From Gammaproteobacteria bacterium (lineage in GTDB: Bacteria; Pseudomonadota; Gammaproteobacteria; Burkholderiales; Sulfuricellaceae), in assembly GCA_018823025.1 (NCBI GenBank), contig JAHJJI010000021.1, forward strand, positions 1-58,517: a stretch of 58,517 nucleotides of DNA, written 5' to 3'. Below are positions 20,175-38,905 of the stretch, one piece after another. The notes below the pieces were generated by a model. It was not told where the DNA came from. It made no database searches and saw nothing but the letters and a program-made list of their open reading frames with translations. Each line of letters begins with the position of its first letter. The stretch's first letter is position 1. A program made the position numbers and the translations under genes.

Positions 20175-22046
20175 ATGGAACTAGCAAAAATCGTTTCGAT
20201 GCATCCCGCTCTGGCGGGACACGAGTCCAGGATGGTTTCGGCGAATCAAGCTGTTGCCATGGTTCAGGCGGGTAACAATGTCTATCTCGGTACTGCTTGC
20301 GCAACCCCCCGCCTGCTGTGCGAGGCGCTGGAAAATCTCGCCGAACCGCCCCCTGATGTAACGCTTTACCATTTCCTGACCGATGGCGCGGTGTCGCACA
20401 AGGGGGGCAAACCCTCGACGCGGTACAGGCACAAGTGCTTCTTTGTCGGCAGCGACCTGCGCTCTGCCGTCGCAAAGGGGTTGGTCGAATACATCCCCGT
20501 TTCGCTTTCGCAGGTGCCCGGGCTCGTCGAAAACGGGCGTATCCCGATCGACGTGGCGTTTGTCCAGGTGTCCCCGCCGGACGAATTCGGCTATTTGAGC
20601 CTGGGCGTTTCGGTCGACGTGACCGCCTCGATGGTCCAGAACGCCCGACGCGTGATTGCCGAAATCAACCCCAATATGCCCCGCACCACCGGGGACAGCC
20701 TCGTCCATGTTAGCCGCTTCGACCGCATGGTCTGGTATGACACGCCGGTTATCGAAGTGCCTGCGGTGCCCATCGACGAGGTGACTGAGCAGATAGCACG
20801 GCGTATCGCGAGCATCATCGAAGACCGCTCCACCTTGCAGATCGGGCTGGGCAACCTGCCGCAGGCGACGCTTCGGTATCTCGGTGACCGGCGCGATCTT
20901 GGCATTCATACGGACGTCATTACGGACGCTCTGGTCGAACTGCTGGAGAAAGGGGTGGTGACCGGTCGCAGCAAAAGCCGGTTCCGGGGGATGATCGTCG
21001 GCAGCTACTGCATGGGCACTCGGCGGCTGTACGATCTGATCGACGGCAACCCGCTGTTTTCCTTCCAGGCTATCGAGCGCGTCAGCGCAGTCGGTACCAT
21101 TGCCTTGCAGCACAAGATGGTTTCGGTGAATCAGGTCTGCTCGGTTGACCTGACCGGGCAGGTTTGCACTGACCAGTTTGCTGGCCAGTTTTGTGGCGGG
21201 GTGTCGACGCAGGCGGAATTTATTCGGGGCGCGGCCCTGTCGCCCGGTGGCAAGCCCGTCGTCTGCCTGACCTCTACGTCGGAGGACGGCAAGGTGTCGC
21301 GTATCCGTCCGTTGCTGCTGGGGGGCGAGGGCGTGACCATTGCGCGGTCTGACGTACACTATGTGGTGACCGAATATGGGGTTGCCTACCTGTTTGGCAA
21401 GTCGATTCGCGAAAGGGCGCTCGCGCTGATTCGGATCGCCCATCCGGATTTCCGCTCCAAGCTGCTGAAAGAGGCCAGGAAGCTAGGTTATGTCGAGAAA
21501 GGGCTGTCACTCAAGAAGGCCGCCGCGGTTTCGGACAGGGAAGAGCGGCGCCTGCTCCTGAGGGACCAGAAGACGGTGCTGATACGTCCGACCCGGGCAG
21601 GCGATACGCAAGCTTTGCAGGATTTTTTCCGGAGCATGAGCAAGGAAGATCGTTACACACGGTTTTTCCGGCGCCTGAGCCATCTTTCCGATGCCGAGGC
21701 ACAGCGCCTGTGCCATGTCGATCAGGATAGCGAGGTGGCTTTCCTGGTGCTGTACGGTGCCAAAGGGAAGGAAGCGATTATCGGTAGCGCATTTTACTTT
21801 GTGAACCCATCCGCCAATATGGCGGAGGTCGCCTATATGGTGGCGCCGGGATGGCAGGGTAAGGGAATCGGCACAGCCATGCAGCTCAGGCTCATGGAGC
21901 ATGCCAAGAAGCGCGGTTTGCGGGGCTTCACCGCTGAAATTCAGGCCTATAACGCCAATATGATCAACCTTGCGAAGCGGGCCTGCGACGATATCAGCAT
22001 CGAACGGCACGGCGATACGCACGAAGTCACCATGTTGTTCGAGTAA
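20175..22046 (+). CDS. Acetyl-CoA hydrolase/transferase fused to a GNAT acetyltransferase
   Basis: This 623-residue cytoplasmic protein has two parts. Residues 1 to about 435 form an acetyl-CoA hydrolase/CoA-transferase domain: SLGVSVDVTASMV, LQIGLGNLPQATLRYL, then VDLTGQVCTDQFAGQF and VTEYGVAYLFGKSIRERA. Residues about 455-623 form a GNAT domain starting LIRPTRAGDTQAL, with the acetyl-CoA loop VAPGWQGKGIGTAMQ. The fusion is a known architecture in proteobacteria, but its substrate is not settled. Candidates are CoA transfer to or from acetate or a related acid and acetylation of a protein. The segment GIHTDVITDALVEL has Asp247 where related CoA-transferases generally have a glutamate (comparison from memory). 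The strong terminator at 22064-22103 follows. Confidence 0.88.
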   Translation: MELAKIVSMHPALAGHESRMVSANQAVAMVQAGNNVYLGTACATPRLLCEALENLAEPPPDVTLYHFLTDGAVSHKGGKPSTRYRHKCFFVGSDLRSAVAKGLVEYIPVSLSQVPGLVENGRIPIDVAFVQVSPPDEFGYLSLGVSVDVTASMVQNARRVIAEINPNMPRTTGDSLVHVSRFDRMVWYDTPVIEVPAVPIDEVTEQIARRIASIIEDRSTLQIGLGNLPQATLRYLGDRRDLGIHTDVITDALVELLEKGVVTGRSKSRFRGMIVGSYCMGTRRLYDLIDGNPLFSFQAIERVSAVGTIALQHKMVSVNQVCSVDLTGQVCTDQFAGQFCGGVSTQAEFIRGAALSPGGKPVVCLTSTSEDGKVSRIRPLLLGGEGVTIARSDVHYVVTEYGVAYLFGKSIRERALALIRIAHPDFRSKLLKEARKLGYVEKGLSLKKAAAVSDREERRLLLRDQKTVLIRPTRAGDTQALQDFFRSMSKEDRYTRFFRRLSHLSDAEAQRLCHVDQDSEVAFLVLYGAKGKEAIIGSAFYFVNPSANMAEVAYMVAPGWQGKGIGTAMQLRLMEHAKKRGLRGFTAEIQAYNANMINLAKRACDDISIERHGDTHEVTMLFE

Positions 22047-31488: not shown

Positions 31489-32940
31489 ATGAGTGAAGAA
31501 ATTTTAATCAATGTCACCCCGCAGGAAACCCGGGTGGCAGTCATGCAACAGGGTGTGGTGCAGGAAATCCATATCGAGCGCATGAGCAGTCGCGGTCTTG
31601 TCGGCAATATCTATGTCGGCCGGGTGTGCCGAGTGTTGCCGGGGATGCAGTCCGCATTCGTCGAAATCGGCCTGGATCGCGCCGCTTTCCTGCATGTGGC
31701 GGACATCTGGCAGGAGCGCCAGGATGTGGAAACCCGGCTGATCGAGAGGATATTGCACGAGGGGCAGACCCTGCTGGTGCAAGTGATCAAGGATCCCATC
31801 AGCACCAAGGGCGCACGGCTTTCCACCCAGATCAGCATCGCCGGACGCTTCCTGGTTTTTTTGCCGCAGGAGACGCACATCGGCATCTCCCAGCGCATCG
31901 AGGACGAAGCCGAGCGCGAACTGCTGCGCGAAAAGTTGCAGCATCTATTGCAACCCGACGCAGGAGGTGGTTTCATCATCCGCACTATGGCGGAAGCGGC
32001 CTCCGGCAGCGAGCTTGAAGCCGATGTCGAGTACCTGCGCAAGCAGTGGCGCGACATCAACGACAAAGCCAAAAGCGCCAAGCCGACCACTATGCTTTAC
32101 CATGACCTGAATCTTTCTCTGCGGGTGCTACGCGATTTCGTCAACGAAGAAACCATCCGAATTCGGGTGGATTCGCGTGAGACCTTCCAGAAAATGCAGG
32201 GTTTCGCCCTCGAGTACACCAGTAACGTCGTCGGCCTGCTCGAACATTATGCCGGCGAGCGACCGCTGTTCGATCTGCATGGCGTGGAAAACGAGATCGA
32301 GAAGGCGCTGGCGCGGCGCGTCGACCTGAAGTCGGGCGGCTACCTGATTATCGACCAGACCGAGGCGCTGACCACGGTGGACGTGAACACCGGCGGCTTC
32401 GTTGGCGGACGTAATTTCGACGACACTATTTTCAAAACCAACCTCGAAGCAGCTCAGGCGATCGCCCGGCAGTTGCGGCTGAGAAACCTCGGCGGCATCA
32501 TCATCGTGGATTTTATCGATATGGACAACGAGGAGCACAAGACCGCCGTCCTTGCCGAGTTCAAGAAGACGTTGGCGAAAGACCGTACGCGCATGACAGT
32601 AAACGGTTTCTCCGCGCTTGGCTTGGTGGAGATGACGCGCAAGCGCACCCGCGAGAGCCTGGCCCACATCCTGTGCGAGCCCTGCTCCACCTGTCAGGGG
32701 CGAGGTGTTCTGAAGACGGCGCAGACAGTGTGCTACGACATTCTGCGCGAGCTGGTGCGTGAGGCGCGCCAGTTCAGTTCGCGCGAGTTTCGCATACTCG
32801 CTTCCCAGCAGGTGATCGACTTGTTTCTCGATGAGGAATCACAAAGCCTGGCGCAGTTGGGAGATTTTATTGGCAAGCCGATTTATCTTCAGGTGGAAAG
32901 TCAGTACAGCCAAGAGCAGTACGATATTGTATTGATGTAG
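31489..32940 (+). CDS. rng: Ribonuclease G
   Basis: RNase G is the short paralogue of RNase E and processes the 5' end of 16S rRNA and some mRNAs. The 483-residue protein lacks the long disordered tail of RNase E. It has the S1-like RNA-binding domain (GNIYVGRVCRVLPGMQSAFV), the DNase I-like catalytic core with VDVNTGGFVG and IIVDFIDMDN (metal-binding aspartates), and the zinc-link CEPCSTCQGRG. It ends the leuS-to-rng run; a short spacer of about 195 bp with a repeat remnant separates it from maf. Confidence 0.95.
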   Translation: MSEEILINVTPQETRVAVMQQGVVQEIHIERMSSRGLVGNIYVGRVCRVLPGMQSAFVEIGLDRAAFLHVADIWQERQDVETRLIERILHEGQTLLVQVIKDPISTKGARLSTQISIAGRFLVFLPQETHIGISQRIEDEAERELLREKLQHLLQPDAGGGFIIRTMAEAASGSELEADVEYLRKQWRDINDKAKSAKPTTMLYHDLNLSLRVLRDFVNEETIRIRVDSRETFQKMQGFALEYTSNVVGLLEHYAGERPLFDLHGVENEIEKALARRVDLKSGGYLIIDQTEALTTVDVNTGGFVGGRNFDDTIFKTNLEAAQAIARQLRLRNLGGIIIVDFIDMDNEEHKTAVLAEFKKTLAKDRTRMTVNGFSALGLVEMTRKRTRESLAHILCEPCSTCQGRGVLKTAQTVCYDILRELVREARQFSSREFRILASQQVIDLFLDEESQSLAQLGDFIGKPIYLQVESQYSQEQYDIVLM

Positions 32941-33053: not shown

Positions 33054-33082
33054 TTGCAAAACGCTGTTCTGTCTGATATTTT
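33054..33082 (+). promoter_or_regulatory. Candidate sigma-70 promoter for the riboswitch-DUF1631 transcript
   Basis: TTGCAA (33054-33059), a 17-bp spacer and TATTTT (33077-33082) make a reasonable -35/-10 pair. It would start transcription at about 33089, directly before the riboswitch. Confidence 0.5.
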
Positions 33083-33091
33083 TATAGTAAC

Positions 33092-33175
33092 CAAAAAAGG
33101 TAAACCCATCGAAAGGTGGGGGCGCAAAGTTTCCGGTCTAAGGGGCGAAAGCTCTACGATAGCGGGATTGCTGGG
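33092..33175 (+). promoter_or_regulatory. Cyclic di-GMP class I (GEMM-I) riboswitch aptamer
   Basis: The sequence follows the GEMM-I consensus block by block: GGTAAACC, stem CCCATC-GAAA-GGTGGG, the strongly conserved GGCGCAAAG, then CCGGTCTA, a second stem GGGGC-GAAA-GCTCT, and TACGATAGCGGGATTGC at the end. The GAAA tetraloop of the first stem and the receptor-type CTAAG...CTACGA of the second stem are both present, as needed for the tertiary docking that forms the ligand pocket. The AGGTAA segment near the 5' end can pair with TTGCT at the 3' end. It sits on the leader of the DUF1631 gene, 117 bases ahead of its start codon. Confidence 0.93.
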
Positions 33176-33182
33176 TGAGCCA

Positions 33183-33220
33183 GACTGGCGCTTTCTGTCA
33201 GCCAGTCGTCGTTTCTTTTC
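33183..33220 (+). terminator. Candidate expression-platform terminator of the c-di-GMP riboswitch
   Basis: Perfect 7-bp arms GACTGGC (33183-33189) and GCCAGTC (33201-33207) are followed by GTCGTTTCTTTTC, an imperfect T-run. CTGG at 33171-33174, overlapping the aptamer's 3' end, can pair with CCAG at 33180-33183, whose last base belongs to the terminator stem, so ligand binding could shift which hairpin forms. Whether c-di-GMP turns the gene on or off cannot be read from sequence. Confidence 0.5.
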
Positions 33221-33291
33221 GCCTGCATTCTCTATTCCCTGGACCTGTTTTTCGGCACAACCGCTGCGCTCCGCTAACCAGGAGAACCATT

Positions 33292-35655
33292 ATGAGCACT
33301 AGCTCGAACAAAAATGTCGTGGATATGAGCAAGTTCGATAAGCTTCGTGCCGTTTCGGGAGCCTCCGGCGTGCCTCTGCTAAACGATTGCCGAGACATGG
33401 CCGCCTCACAGTTGGCGCAATTTGCTGCTGCCATGCTGGACAAGGCGGTGAACGAGTTGTTCGAGCAGGCCGAAAAATCCCTCGGCGGTGAAATGCGCAA
33501 TCTCTACATGGATGGGATGTCGCTCGCGCGCGACGAAAAAGAAGCCATTACAACCGGGTTCAAGCGGCAATTTGTCCAAGGTTTCAACAAGCACATCAGG
33601 AAAGGAAAATACGCACAGCCCTCCAGCGCATCATCATTCAACCTCGCCGAGATGGAGCTTAGCCTGATCGACCTGGATGCACTGGAAGAATCCCTGGCCT
33701 TGGCCAATATTACAAATAACATTCATGGTACTTGTGCTGAGGAACTGTTCGGTATCGAAAAACGTCTGGGCACGCTGTTGCATGTGCATGAGCTGGATTC
33801 CGCCGACAACCCGATTGGCCCGGAAGCAATCGGTACAGGCTTCATGGAGGCGCTCAAGGAACTGGACGGCAGCGTAAAAGTAAAGCTGTTGCTAGTCATG
33901 ATGTTCAACAAGTACATGCCGGATCAGATCAAAAATATGTACCAGGACATCAACCAGCATTTGGTGGAAAAGGGCGTGCTGCCCAAAATTCGGGTTGGCA
34001 TGAAAAAGCACGGTGGTTCTGCTGCCCGCCAGCCTGAATTCCACGCCGCTGGTGCAACGGGTTCCGAGCCAACAGCGAATGGGCCGGATTTATTTGCAAC
34101 CTTGCAACAGCTCGTCTCCCTTGGCAATTCGGGTATGGCGGGAATGGGCGTACCACAACAAGCCGGTCAGCCTGGAGCCATCGGAGGTGCAATGGCTTCG
34201 GGCGGCGCTGCTGTACAAAGCGCAGGAGTCATGAGTACGTTGACCAAGTTGCAACAGGGTCAGTTTGAAGGGGTATTGGGTGAGGGTGTCATGCTCGATC
34301 CTGCACTGCTGGCTAATGGCCGTACGAATGTTCTACGTGAAATAAAATCAAGCGGCATGGCCAGCGTCATGGGGCACGTCGACGCTATGACGCTGGATAT
34401 TGTCGCCATGCTGTTCGACTATATTCTGGATGACCGTAATATTCCGGATGCCATGAAGGCGTTAATCGGCAGGCTGCAAATACCAGTTCTTAAAGTGGCC
34501 ATGCTGGATAAAACGTTTTTCTCAAAAAAAGCACATCCAGCCCGCAAGTTCCTCGATACGCTGGCCAATGCTGCGATTGGCTGGAATGAGGAAGAAGGCC
34601 ATCAGGGAGGTTTGTACAAGAAGGTGGATCATCTGGTACAGCGCATCCTGAACGAGTTTGAAGATAAGGTCGGTGTATTCGCCGATATGCAGGAAGAACT
34701 GGAAAGCTATCTTGCCGCGGAGAAAGAGCGTGCTGACGAACTGACTGGGCGCAGCGCCCAGGTAGTGCAGACCCGTGAGCAGGAAGAGATCGCCAGGATT
34801 ATGGCGCACGACGAAGTGAAACGTCGCATCGAATCGCGCAAGCTGCCGCAGCTTATTCGTGAATTCCTGTCCCACCAGTGGGAGTCCGTGCTCAGCTTAA
34901 CCTATCAGAAATCTGGCGAAGACAGCCAGGCATGGAACGAAGTGCTGGAAACAATGGATCAACTGATATGGAGCGTGGTCGCCAAGGAAGTATCGGATGA
35001 CCGCAAAAAGCTGGTTGGCCTGCTGCCGAATTTGCTGAAACGCTTACAGCAGGGTATGGCCGCTATTGATGTGACTGGTGACGAACGCGACCAATTCTTC
35101 GCCAAGCTCATCCGCTGTCATGCGGATGCGGTGAAATCCGGCCTGCACGCTGAAGATGAAGAAGCCTGGCAAGACACGGACATAGAAAGTCTTGCGGAAG
35201 AGACAGAGGGCATGGTCGAAGCGCCGACGGATTTTGAAGAAATCACCCCGTCGCCTGAAGCCCCTGCACCGGATATGGCGCTCATTCAGCAGATTTCTGA
35301 GGAACCTGCTCCTGTGGACTTTGATCTGGAGGAAGTGCCAATCAGCGATGTACCGTGGCAGGCAAATGAACTTCAAAATGATGACTCTGGAGCGTTAGTG
35401 GCAAAACTCAAGCGCGGTACCTGGATTGAGTTCGTCCAGGCGGATGGCACTGCCTCGCGCAGCAAGCTGGCGTGGGTGAGTCCACTCAAGGGTCTGTACC
35501 TGTTTACCAACCGTCTTGGCTCAAGAGCGCTTTCGATTACGCCTTCCCGCCTCACGGAGAAATTCCGCAGCGGGCAGGCACAAATCATCAACGATGAAGC
35601 ATTGATCGACCGTGCAGTCAGCGACATGATGGGACGTCTCCAGCAAGTGGCCTGA
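33292..35655 (+). CDS. DUF1631 family protein under c-di-GMP riboswitch control
   Basis: The 787-residue cytoplasmic protein belongs to DUF1631, a betaproteobacterial/gammaproteobacterial family often mislabelled thymidine phosphorylase; no enzyme motif was found. It starts at ATG 33292 behind a good AGGAG (33279-33284). It is largely helical, with a low-complexity Gly/Ala/Gln-rich linker near residues 245-315, a charged coiled stretch (DMQEELESYLAAEKERADEL, about 464-483) and a C-terminal beta-rich block, LKRGTWIEFVQADGTASRSK followed by WVSPLKGLYLFTNR. That last block is PilZ-like in style, but I see no RxxxR motif. Regulated by the upstream riboswitch, it is probably an output of c-di-GMP signalling. 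The EAL-HDOD gene follows after 95 bases. Confidence 0.85.
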   Translation: MSTSSNKNVVDMSKFDKLRAVSGASGVPLLNDCRDMAASQLAQFAAAMLDKAVNELFEQAEKSLGGEMRNLYMDGMSLARDEKEAITTGFKRQFVQGFNKHIRKGKYAQPSSASSFNLAEMELSLIDLDALEESLALANITNNIHGTCAEELFGIEKRLGTLLHVHELDSADNPIGPEAIGTGFMEALKELDGSVKVKLLLVMMFNKYMPDQIKNMYQDINQHLVEKGVLPKIRVGMKKHGGSAARQPEFHAAGATGSEPTANGPDLFATLQQLVSLGNSGMAGMGVPQQAGQPGAIGGAMASGGAAVQSAGVMSTLTKLQQGQFEGVLGEGVMLDPALLANGRTNVLREIKSSGMASVMGHVDAMTLDIVAMLFDYILDDRNIPDAMKALIGRLQIPVLKVAMLDKTFFSKKAHPARKFLDTLANAAIGWNEEEGHQGGLYKKVDHLVQRILNEFEDKVGVFADMQEELESYLAAEKERADELTGRSAQVVQTREQEEIARIMAHDEVKRRIESRKLPQLIREFLSHQWESVLSLTYQKSGEDSQAWNEVLETMDQLIWSVVAKEVSDDRKKLVGLLPNLLKRLQQGMAAIDVTGDERDQFFAKLIRCHADAVKSGLHAEDEEAWQDTDIESLAEETEGMVEAPTDFEEITPSPEAPAPDMALIQQISEEPAPVDFDLEEVPISDVPWQANELQNDDSGALVAKLKRGTWIEFVQADGTASRSKLAWVSPLKGLYLFTNRLGSRALSITPSRLTEKFRSGQAQIINDEALIDRAVSDMMGRLQQVA

Positions 35656-35750
35656 TTTGGCCGTGGAAAACCTTTCCCGCGAACATTTACAAAGCATGCG
35701 GGTTATTGCATGCTAGTGTCCTGTTGCCGGATGTTATGCGAAGAGCCCAT

Positions 35751-37094
35751 ATGCTAGAGAAATATCTCAGACTGATCACCGGTGGCCGCGATAAATCGTT
35801 CACCCCTCCCCCCGGTGGAATCGAAACCTTGCTGGATAACCCGGAACACGAGACCCGCGCAGGGGCAAAAGCCACGTTACAGCGCTTTCTCGGTCGCCAG
35901 CCGATCCTGGATGATGCATCCCGGATAGTCGGATACGAGCTGAAGATAAGAAGCGGTGTGTTGTCCCCGGAAGAGCTGACTGAAGGCGCACGACAACAGG
36001 CGCAGAATGAAATGCTGGTGATCGGCGTCATCGACCTCGCTTTCCAGAAGGCGTTGGGCGCCAAGCTGACCTTCATCAGTCTGTCTCCCGCCATGCTGGA
36101 CAACCCCCTGCTGAATGAGCTGCCGGCAAAAAATATCGTCGTCGCTATTTGCCCTGAGAAAACCGATATTCAAGAACTGGTTGAGCGATGTCGCGAACTC
36201 ACTGCCCGTGGCATCCAGATTGCACTGGAAGATTTCGAATACCGCCCTGAACTGAATCCGCTGCTAGAACTGTGCCGTTACGTCAGGATCAACACACGCC
36301 AATACGACGCCTTGCAACTGAGTGAGCAGGCTGTCGCGCTGCTTAAAATGCATGGTCCTACTCTGATTGCTACTCAAGTAGAAACGGAAGAAGCATTCGA
36401 GGCTTACCGTAAGCTTTCTTTCAACCTGTTTCAGGGTTACTACTTTACCTGCCTGCAACCCGCTGCGCCGCACCGCATGGACAGCAATCGCATTCGCGTA
36501 ATGGAACTGCTCAACCTGGTCATCAACCGTGCCGATATTCACGCGCTGGAAGAAAAGGTCAAACTGGATGCGGCCTTGACCTACCGTTTGCTGAATTACA
36601 TTAATTCACCGGCAAACGGCATGCAGAAACAAATCCAGTCGATTGGGCATGCCATCACGCTCATCGGCTACGACCAGTTGTACCGTTGGCTCACTCTGCT
36701 GATGTTTAGTAGCGGTAAAGCGGATGAACGCAGCCGCTCACTACTCAAAAATGCATTGGTGCGCGGGCGTTTTTGCGAGTCGCTCGGCAAAACCAGGCTG
36801 CGGCCAGCCGAACTCGGCGGCTTGTTTATCGTAGGCATTTTTTCGTTGCTGGATGCCTTGCTCAATATACCCATGGGGGATGCGCTCGCCCGCCTGAACC
36901 TGCCGAAACCGGTTGTCGACGCCCTGATCCGGCGCGAGGGTCTATATGCGCCATATCTGCAACTGGCCATTGCCTGCGAAAATTTCGATCAGGACACCAT
37001 TTCTCGCTATTCCACCGATTGCGGCCTTGATGCAGATGCGGTAAACGTGGCGCATGTGAACGCATTGATCTGGTCTGAGCAGATCGAAGTGTAG
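35751..37094 (+). CDS. Degenerate EAL domain-HDOD signalling protein (YuxH type)
   Basis: This 447-residue protein pairs an EAL domain (about residues 40-230) with a HDOD domain (about 235-440). The EAL part starts GRQPILDDASRIVGYELKIR but lacks the catalytic signature: the usual EAL is YELK, and the DDFGTG region reads LEDFEYRPELN. It is therefore probably not a phosphodiesterase; it may bind c-di-GMP or a partner. The HDOD part has ALTYRLLNYINSPANGMQ. The start is placed at the ATG at 35751, with GAAGAG upstream; ATG 35736 is possible. It lies 95 bases after the DUF1631 gene and could share its riboswitch-controlled transcript. Confidence 0.87.
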   Translation: MLEKYLRLITGGRDKSFTPPPGGIETLLDNPEHETRAGAKATLQRFLGRQPILDDASRIVGYELKIRSGVLSPEELTEGARQQAQNEMLVIGVIDLAFQKALGAKLTFISLSPAMLDNPLLNELPAKNIVVAICPEKTDIQELVERCRELTARGIQIALEDFEYRPELNPLLELCRYVRINTRQYDALQLSEQAVALLKMHGPTLIATQVETEEAFEAYRKLSFNLFQGYYFTCLQPAAPHRMDSNRIRVMELLNLVINRADIHALEEKVKLDAALTYRLLNYINSPANGMQKQIQSIGHAITLIGYDQLYRWLTLLMFSSGKADERSRSLLKNALVRGRFCESLGKTRLRPAELGGLFIVGIFSLLDALLNIPMGDALARLNLPKPVVDALIRREGLYAPYLQLAIACENFDQDTISRYSTDCGLDADAVNVAHVNALIWSEQIEV

Positions 37095-37184: not shown

Positions 37185-37598
37185 CTAATCTTTCCACGGA
37201 TTCACCACCACCAGCCCCGGAATCTCAAAATTTTTGTCGTTGCACGTGACTATCCGCAAGTCGTGATGCAGGGCGGTGGCCGTCAGCAGGCTATCGGTAG
37301 CGGGAAGGGGGCGAGATGTTTCGGACTGCAGGCGGCCCCACCGGTCGGCGACGGCGGCGTCCACGGGTAATAGATGATCGCCGAACCAGGCAGGCAAGTC
37401 GTTTTCCAGCCACACGCGCAGTTTTTCCCGGCGGTTTGCATCCGGCATCTTCTCCACTCTTTTGCGCAATTCCCCCAGAGTCAGGACGCTCAAGTACAGG
37501 GCAGAATCCGGTATGGTATTAAACCATTCCACCACTCGTGGATCGGGCTTGGTCCGGACGAGTTCGGAAATGACGCTGGTGTCGATGAGGTAGCTCAC
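37185..37598 (-). CDS. PIN-domain toxin of a type II toxin-antitoxin pair (VapC type)
   Basis: The 137-residue protein is a PIN-domain ribonuclease. The acidic metal-binding residues are Asp6 (YLIDTSVISE), Glu43 (LGELRK), Asp102 (ATDSLLTATA) and Asp121 (CNDKNF), so the active site looks intact. VapC-type toxins cut tRNA or rRNA and stop growth when the antitoxin is lost. Its start codon overlaps the stop of the antitoxin gene by 4 nt, as expected for translational coupling. Confidence 0.93.
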   Translation of the reverse strand: MSYLIDTSVISELVRTKPDPRVVEWFNTIPDSALYLSVLTLGELRKRVEKMPDANRREKLRVWLENDLPAWFGDHLLPVDAAVADRWGRLQSETSRPLPATDSLLTATALHHDLRIVTCNDKNFEIPGLVVVNPWKD

Positions 37599-37885: not shown

Positions 37886-38905
37886 CTATTGGGCCGGTTT
37901 CTCAAATGGGAATGTTTGCGCGAGCGCCATTATCCGCTCGATCACAGCTTCCTGATGGTGCAGCCGAGCGAGTGCGGTATCCGTTTCTTCCTTCCGCGCC
38001 TCAAGGGTAGTGATCTGGTCACGGATCATGTTGACGTCTTCCTCGCATTTCTCCAGGGAGATTTTTTTTATCTGGATCTGCTCCTGAATCGGGACGGACA
38101 GCTCTCTTAGCCACCAGTCGGTTTCTGTTTTTAACTGTGTGAACAGATCGCGCAGTGGCATCACCACTTCCATGCCGAATTTCTTTGCCAGGCTGGCTTT
38201 GTCTGTCATCAGATTGATCGGGCGGCGGCAGAATTCAGCGGTTTTTTCACCGAGCTGCTCTAAGTCCTGACGGTAATTCTCCAGGCCGGAAAGTTGGGGT
38301 GGCCCAAGTGTAAAACCGGGAAGTTGATTGAATCGGGTGTATACGGCCTCGACCACAGTCATGATTTGACGATTCTGGCGCTCGAAACCTTCAAACAAGG
38401 TAGATGCCTCGCTGATCAGGGAATGCATTGCCTGGGTAAGCGCACTGGTAGTGGGGCTTTTAAGCATTTCATTCAGATTTTTTGCTACCAGTTGTTCGAC
38501 ATGTATGTTGTCGAGATGGTTGAGAAGTATGCCGCCCTGCCGCGCAATGAGTTTGCGCGCGATGTTGAAGCTATTCCATGCCTCCTGGCTCAGGTACTGG
38601 TCTGCCCGCAGACTTTGCTCCAGTTGATCTGCGACTTCACGATTTTTACTGATCAGGCTGGTCAATGTGTTTTGTTCGTGATGCAGTTCGGCATACCGGC
38701 GCTTCACGCCTGAGCGGACAGTTTCCGTAATCAGGCTCATTTGAGCAAAAGTAGCGGCATCAGGCAGCGTAGTTTTCAGGATGTCCAGCAGTTCATGGGC
38801 GCGCCGCAGCAACTGCGGGTCGAGCAACTCGGGCGCATCCGGCAAGGACAGGCAGGCTTCCAGTGCGCTAGCCAGCTCAATATGCGGCAGCAAGGTGTCA
38901 GTCAT
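37886..38905 (-). CDS. Unrecognised coiled-coil protein in the yggS-proC-yggT-yggU block
   Basis: I do not recognise this 339-residue protein. It is mostly alpha-helical and soluble, with no signal peptide or membrane segment. Likely coiled coils lie in TLTSLISKNREVADQLEQSL (about residues 80-99) and again in the last 60 residues (EEDVNMIRDQITTLEARKEE). It has no Walker motif or known enzyme signature. Its start overlaps the yggU stop by 4 nt, so it is translationally coupled to the proC-yggT-yggU genes. A structural or adaptor role is plausible but unproven. Confidence 0.7.
   Translation of the reverse strand: MTDTLLPHIELASALEACLSLPDAPELLDPQLLRRAHELLDILKTTLPDAATFAQMSLITETVRSGVKRRYAELHHEQNTLTSLISKNREVADQLEQSLRADQYLSQEAWNSFNIARKLIARQGGILLNHLDNIHVEQLVAKNLNEMLKSPTTSALTQAMHSLISEASTLFEGFERQNRQIMTVVEAVYTRFNQLPGFTLGPPQLSGLENYRQDLEQLGEKTAEFCRRPINLMTDKASLAKKFGMEVVMPLRDLFTQLKTETDWWLRELSVPIQEQIQIKKISLEKCEEDVNMIRDQITTLEARKEETDTALARLHHQEAVIERIMALAQTFPFEKPAQ

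Follow-up and report, generated by a model that had tools for sequence, protein, structure and literature searches.

Riboswitches of the cyclic di-GMP I (c-di-GMP-I) class control diverse genes, those for motility and biofilm formation among them, according to the accessible part of one account (PMC7266159). Proteins joining an EAL to an HDOD domain are described in Acidithiobacillus in the accessible part of another report (PMC6416229). DUF1631 proteins, whose function is unknown, appear in gene lists only in those parts of the open literature that could be seen, and no description of a riboswitch-DUF1631 unit, with or without HDOD, was found there. Here we describe such a unit in the genus Sulfuricella, on contig 7 of a 3.35-Mb genome; the whole 58,517-nucleotide stretch analyzed is called the window below. 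A c-di-GMP-I (GEMM-I) aptamer, matched at positions 33089 to 33175, lies in the 5' leader of a co-directional gene for a DUF1631 protein of 787 amino acids (33292 to 35655), and a gene for a degenerate EAL-HDOD protein of 447 amino acids (35751 to 37094) follows, all on the + strand. We consider it probable, without holding it secure, that this leader acts as a translational off switch over DUF1631 and, in this lineage, over the co-directional EAL-HDOD gene, and that DUF1631 and HDOD proteins work as partners.

The covariance model RF01051 matched the RNA over its full length (model positions 1 to 87) at 77.4 bits against a gathering cut-off of 35, with an E value of 1.6e-13, and this was the sole gathering-level match in the window among the matches listed. 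The initial annotation, which had named a GEMM-I aptamer from its sequence blocks and proposed this Rfam comparison, was borne out; its boundaries of 33092 to 33175 were right at the 3' end and 3 nucleotides short at the 5' end, and the spacing to the DUF1631 gene, given as 117 bases, is indeed close, the distance from the aptamer 3' end to the ATG being 116 nucleotides. The window RNA shares with the riboswitch class the full-length model match, the place in a 5' leader, the core blocks, and the GAAA loop, whereas it differs in its target, DUF1631, and in a predicted expression platform built on pairing of the aptamer core with leader sequence close to the ribosome site. Judged by these features, it is an ordinary, strong representative of a known riboswitch class.

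The motif GG[C/U]AAA (GGUAAA in the window) is kept in all 22 leaders in which we found the aptamer ahead of DUF1631. We take this motif to hold G20 (Vc2 numbering), a residue presumably tied to c-di-GMP rather than to cyclic AMP-GMP (cAMP-GMP), and we assume that cAMP-GMP variants differ at that position. We infer that the ligand is c-di-GMP. Rare variants of the c-di-GMP-I class do sense other cyclic dinucleotides, as the accessible part of one source states (PMC7266159), but with the motif intact in every leader it is very improbable that this aptamer senses one of them, for example, cAMP-GMP.

The pairing of aptamer and DUF1631 recurs far beyond the window. We searched 120 genomes of the order, the window's own included, and obtained RF01051 matches in 56 and DUF1631 matches in 52 of them; the genome-wide RF01051 search used filters, with the loss of some weak matches. 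Of the DUF1631 matches, 94 were carried forward (those left out all lacked the N-terminus), and 11 of the 94 that also lacked it were subtracted, leaving 83. A co-directional RF01051 match lay upstream of 22 of these 83, at 147 to 267 nucleotides from the aptamer to the start of the protein match, while a simple estimate that ignores relatedness gives about 0.003 such pairs by chance. The 22 loci span ten families, with 10 genomes from the window's own family and 12 from nine others, and DUF1631 is thus served by 22 of the 96 RF01051 matches in the order, one of the 96 being below the cut-off. The riboswitch-DUF1631 order first noticed in the window is therefore a recurring one, and because a standard c-di-GMP sensor is paired with DUF1631 in ten families, the DUF1631 protein is very probably part of a c-di-GMP response, as far as genomic context can tell.

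The distribution is patchy at both close and long range. Among close relatives the arrangement was present, as the initial annotation would have it, but in just 2 of the 11 same-genus genomes (G005 and G011), the other 9 being without it, which speaks against a fixed unit; it was found in 7 of the 10 other family members searched. Most of the same-genus genomes without the unit show no DUF1631 match at all, and several are incomplete. A protein search of genome contigs with the window DUF1631 gave a match only in Sulfuricella sp. T08. No RF01051 match at an E value up to 5 was seen in 12 riboswitch-less DUF1631 loci of the order that were scanned, of which 11 are informative, L062 being nearly devoid of a leader, and the aptamer was absent from all 29 DUF1631 loci taken, as the best scoring, from other orders of the taxonomic class. 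When 60 DUF1631 proteins, including those of 19 of the 22 riboswitch loci, were placed on a tree, the aptamer label changed 7 times against 16.3 times when shuffled (0 of 500 shuffles as low), and because of this difference the label is regarded as clustered without forming one clade. An early gain of the aptamer followed by losses would fit this pattern.

The leader itself suggests how control might be exerted. In the window, the aptamer core strand (33118 to 33141) consists of GGGGGCGCAAAG at 33118 to 33129 and CGGUCUAA at 33134 to 33141, and the downstream strand of a proposed alternative helix (33239 to 33272) consists of CUGGACCU from 33239 and UGCGCUCC at 33265 to 33272; inside the latter lies a putative anti-Shine-Dalgarno CUCC (33269 to 33272), complementary to the Shine-Dalgarno AGGAG (33280 to 33284) that stands 7 nucleotides ahead of the ATG at 33292. 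In the ligand-free RNA, the aptamer core would pair with the leader stretch holding CUCC, so that the ribosome site would be open and the gene on, whereas binding of c-di-GMP would lock the aptamer and release CUCC onto AGGAG, lowering translation and turning the gene off. In all ten family leaders the core, GGGG[A/G]CGCAAAG plus CGGUCUAA, could form this helix with sequence 5' of the ribosome site, 164 of 200 cells being paired over the ten against 106 in the highest slid register, and one pair of the helix is A-U in one genus and G-C in the other, with both sides changed. Compared with shuffled leaders, the core duplex reached a p value below 0.05 in six of the ten family members (G005, G012, G014, G017, G018, and G020), and 0.001 to 0.002 in G014, G017, and G020. 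The ligand-bound state was represented by folding the leader alone; accessibility of the ribosome site was then lower in 9 of the 10 family members for a 7-nucleotide site, the drop being no more than 0.04 in two of these, and in 8 of the 10 for a 4-nucleotide site.

Several results weigh against this mechanism. The comparison with slid registers is a biased control, the segments having been selected for complementarity. The core-duplex p value exceeded 0.05 in the window itself (G000, 0.081) and in G011 (0.192), G016 (0.085), and G019 (0.157), and outside the family it fell below 0.05 in only 1 of 12 leaders (G114). The off direction is not robust in the window itself, where the predicted accessibility dropped from 0.50 to 0.18 for the 7-nucleotide site but moved from 0.17 to 0.22 for GGAG, and outside the family a clear fall was confined to G052 and G096, while G048 (+0.14) and G114 (+0.06) showed a rise. 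A control with shuffled aptamers singled out only G014, G016, G017, and G052 of 12 leaders (3 to 5 of 60 shuffles as high), and G018 behaved in the opposite way (59 of 60). The hairpin described below, with its imperfect T tract, also leaves termination as an alternative. Weighing both sides, we favor the translational off switch, with modest confidence in what is a folding prediction.

A duplex test over the whole aptamer, in which the p value was below 0.05 only in G014, G016, G018, G020, and G031, was discarded as poorly posed, because it joins far-apart pieces, and was replaced by the core-duplex test. By eye, the leader of locus L044 (genome G034) contains a stretch complementary to the aptamer 5' strand (GGGCAAACUC/GAGUUUGCCC), and GUUUGCCC stands just ahead of the ribosome site in the leaders of G012, G016, G018, and G019; pairing of the GUUUGCCC or L044 type may be a second form of the expression platform.

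The control could also be wired differently. c-di-GMP might turn DUF1631 on, or it might act through transcription, with a 7-bp hairpin at 33183 to 33207 (+), 3' of the aptamer, and an imperfect T tract from 33212, or else the pyrimidine-rich sequence behind the hairpin, serving as a Rho loading site, ending transcription in one ligand state. The 45-nucleotide stretch with this hairpin folds at −12.6 kcal/mol, UUUCUUUU comes four bases after the stem, and the predicted folds of other family members have strong hairpins 3' of the aptamer as well; yet our scan did not call the hairpin a terminator, and the T tract is altered in G011 (TTTCTCAT) and not evident in the sister genus. The hairpin is a weak candidate terminator. 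We regard such wiring as possible but rather doubtful. The other alternative concerns the extent of the unit. If the EAL-HDOD gene were a mere neighbor, DUF1631 alone would be under c-di-GMP control, as might be expected from its absence within the 1.1 to 2.8 kb of downstream sequence at 10 of the 22 riboswitch-DUF1631 loci and from the multicopy nature of the EAL-HDOD family, with 8 matches to the window protein in its own genome. Its presence at all ten riboswitch loci of the family and at two others, together with the HDOD genes that stand beside DUF1631, in several orientations, in at least 10 of 29 distant loci, makes this account unlikely in our view.

In the favored reading, the riboswitch leader would serve both genes. 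The second gene, with a conserved start at the ATG 35751, encodes a protein with Pfam matches to EAL (44.9 bits; cut-off, 31.3) and HDOD (38.9 bits; cut-off, 22.9), and simple scans gave no promoter or terminator in the 95-nucleotide gap that separates it from DUF1631. Of the 22 riboswitch loci, 12 have it immediately 3' of DUF1631, namely, all ten of the family, G048 (61 to 62%), and G063 (44%), and it was found at none of the 10 full-length riboswitch-less loci of the order (L047 to L049, L051, L054, and L056 to L060, with about 0.5 kb of downstream sequence at L057). The three-part module of the initial annotation, riboswitch, DUF1631, and EAL-HDOD, thus exists but is not general, and the ten riboswitch loci without the third part count against it as a rule; because it occurs in 12 of the 22, the EAL-HDOD gene is best described, on gene order, as a lineage-specific companion.

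The degeneracy that had been claimed for the EAL domain was confirmed by alignment. The Asn and ETE motifs, which we take together with DDF and xKID to be catalytic EAL motifs, are absent in 12 of 12 aligned EAL-HDOD proteins, the comparators being four EAL domains of DUF1631 fusions whose own activity is not established. The window EAL also has EDF and VRIN in place of DDF and xKID, two motifs still present in several relatives. An active phosphodiesterase is accordingly an unlikely reading of the window protein, and the degenerate EAL may supply its HDOD partner with a noncatalytic c-di-GMP input of its own. The domain pair is held in common with the Acidithiobacillus EAL-HDOD proteins, whereas the position of the window gene behind a riboswitch leader and DUF1631, and the loss of its EAL catalytic motifs, set it apart from them, as far as the accessible part of that report goes (PMC6416229).

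The DUF1631 protein of the window is covered by PF07793 almost end to end (profile positions 9 to 741 of 741; 655.7 bits against 33.7), and a sequence search gave no credible solved relatives. Its link to c-di-GMP, proposed from the riboswitch, is strengthened by gene fusions and by HDOD neighbors. GGDEF and EAL are fused to DUF1631 in four of six long frames scanned, which were picked for length: L062 and L070 of the same genus, and L069 and L074 of the order; another picked frame, L063:791-2332, carries no DUF1631. PilZ was above the cut-off in L062 alone (30.1 bits), L074 falling below it (21.3 against 22.5). The DUF1631 region is common to these fusions, with or without PilZ, and to the window protein, which differs in having no PilZ, GGDEF, or EAL match. 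In the window's own genome (G000), further DUF1631 pieces lie at the ends of contigs 82 and 66 (L067 and L068), and in G005 the relative is the fusion PilZ-DUF1631-GGDEF-EAL.

Across other orders of the taxonomic class, an HDOD gene adjoins DUF1631 in at least 10 of the 29 loci, each from a different family (L081, L086, L087, L094, L096, L097, L098, L100, L102, and L103), against 0.28 expected from the 187 summed HDOD matches in the 29 genomes under assumed independence. Five pairs are divergent, three convergent, and two co-directional, with about 120 to 410 nucleotides between the protein matches, and no c-di-GMP-I riboswitch was found at any of the ten. The first HDOD profile was built partly from two of these loci; all ten then matched Pfam HDOD. 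The link between HDOD and DUF1631 is independent of the riboswitch. Taken together with the riboswitch and the fusions, it suggests that DUF1631 has a c-di-GMP-linked role, in signaling or as a scaffold, with HDOD-type regulators as its partners. More tentatively, DUF1631 and HDOD proteins could form an undescribed two-protein c-di-GMP output that is widespread in the taxonomic class and, in one order, under double c-di-GMP control, through the riboswitch on the message and a degenerate, ligand-sensing EAL on the HDOD partner.

Two other readings of the protein were tried. A PilZ-like C-terminal domain, suggested by eye, had no profile support: PilZ gave no Pfam match in 44 DUF1631 C-terminal domains at E values up to 10 with HMMER filters on, and it was not among the best 25 of 56 families for 60 full DUF1631 proteins. 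NF058594, "PacR family protein," was the sole NCBIfam model to match the window DUF1631; the likeness is distant, since 283.8 bits is far under the cut-off of 1200 and leaves the protein outside that family, and no paper on PacR was found in the open literature.

The remaining c-di-GMP-I riboswitches of the order place DUF1631 among other targets. Thirteen were listed and 10 scanned. Genes for response regulator-PilZ proteins stand behind three of the 10 (L012, L013, and L027; position ~1500), so that at these loci an RNA seems to govern the gene for a probable protein receptor of its own ligand; the others are an HDOD protein (L024), two subtilases (L005 and L017), and a PilX pilin-like protein (L014), with no Pfam match in the three remaining scanned targets (L002, L015, and L028). 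The only other RF01051 match of the window's own genome is on contig 61 (L002, 1501 to 1577; 54.3 bits), and the C-terminus of the product encoded behind it is presumably a PEP-CTERM-like sorting sequence.

As for the surroundings of the unit, the RNase G gene (31489 to 32940) adjoins the aptamer on its 5' side. Between them, a plausible promoter had been proposed, and sigma-70-like hexamers are indeed present at 33054 to 33082 (+), TTGCAA at 33054 to 33059 and TATTTT at 33077 to 33082, with a 17-nucleotide spacer and 8 of 12 consensus matches; a consensus scan with a threshold of 9 of 12 detected no promoter, so that a promoter ahead of the aptamer is weakly supported by its sequence. Directly after EAL-HDOD, on the opposite strand, lies a PIN-domain (VapC-like) gene (37185 to 37598), whose VapC model score is under the cut-off, and beyond it a 339-amino-acid open reading frame (37886 to 38905, −) with a weak, below-cut-off match to deoxyhypusine synthase. 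Elsewhere in the window (20175 to 22046, +), an acetyl-CoA hydrolase/transferase carries a fused GNAT acetyltransferase domain.

The main worth of the finding lies in the recurring riboswitch link to DUF1631 and, through DUF1631, to HDOD proteins. The pairing fits a pattern in this order of c-di-GMP riboswitches standing ahead of genes whose products are likewise tied to c-di-GMP. The riboswitch, the gene fusions, and the HDOD neighbors are three kinds of genomic evidence connecting DUF1631, a family of unknown function, to c-di-GMP; they offer it a concrete and testable place in c-di-GMP signaling, with HDOD proteins as a candidate partner.

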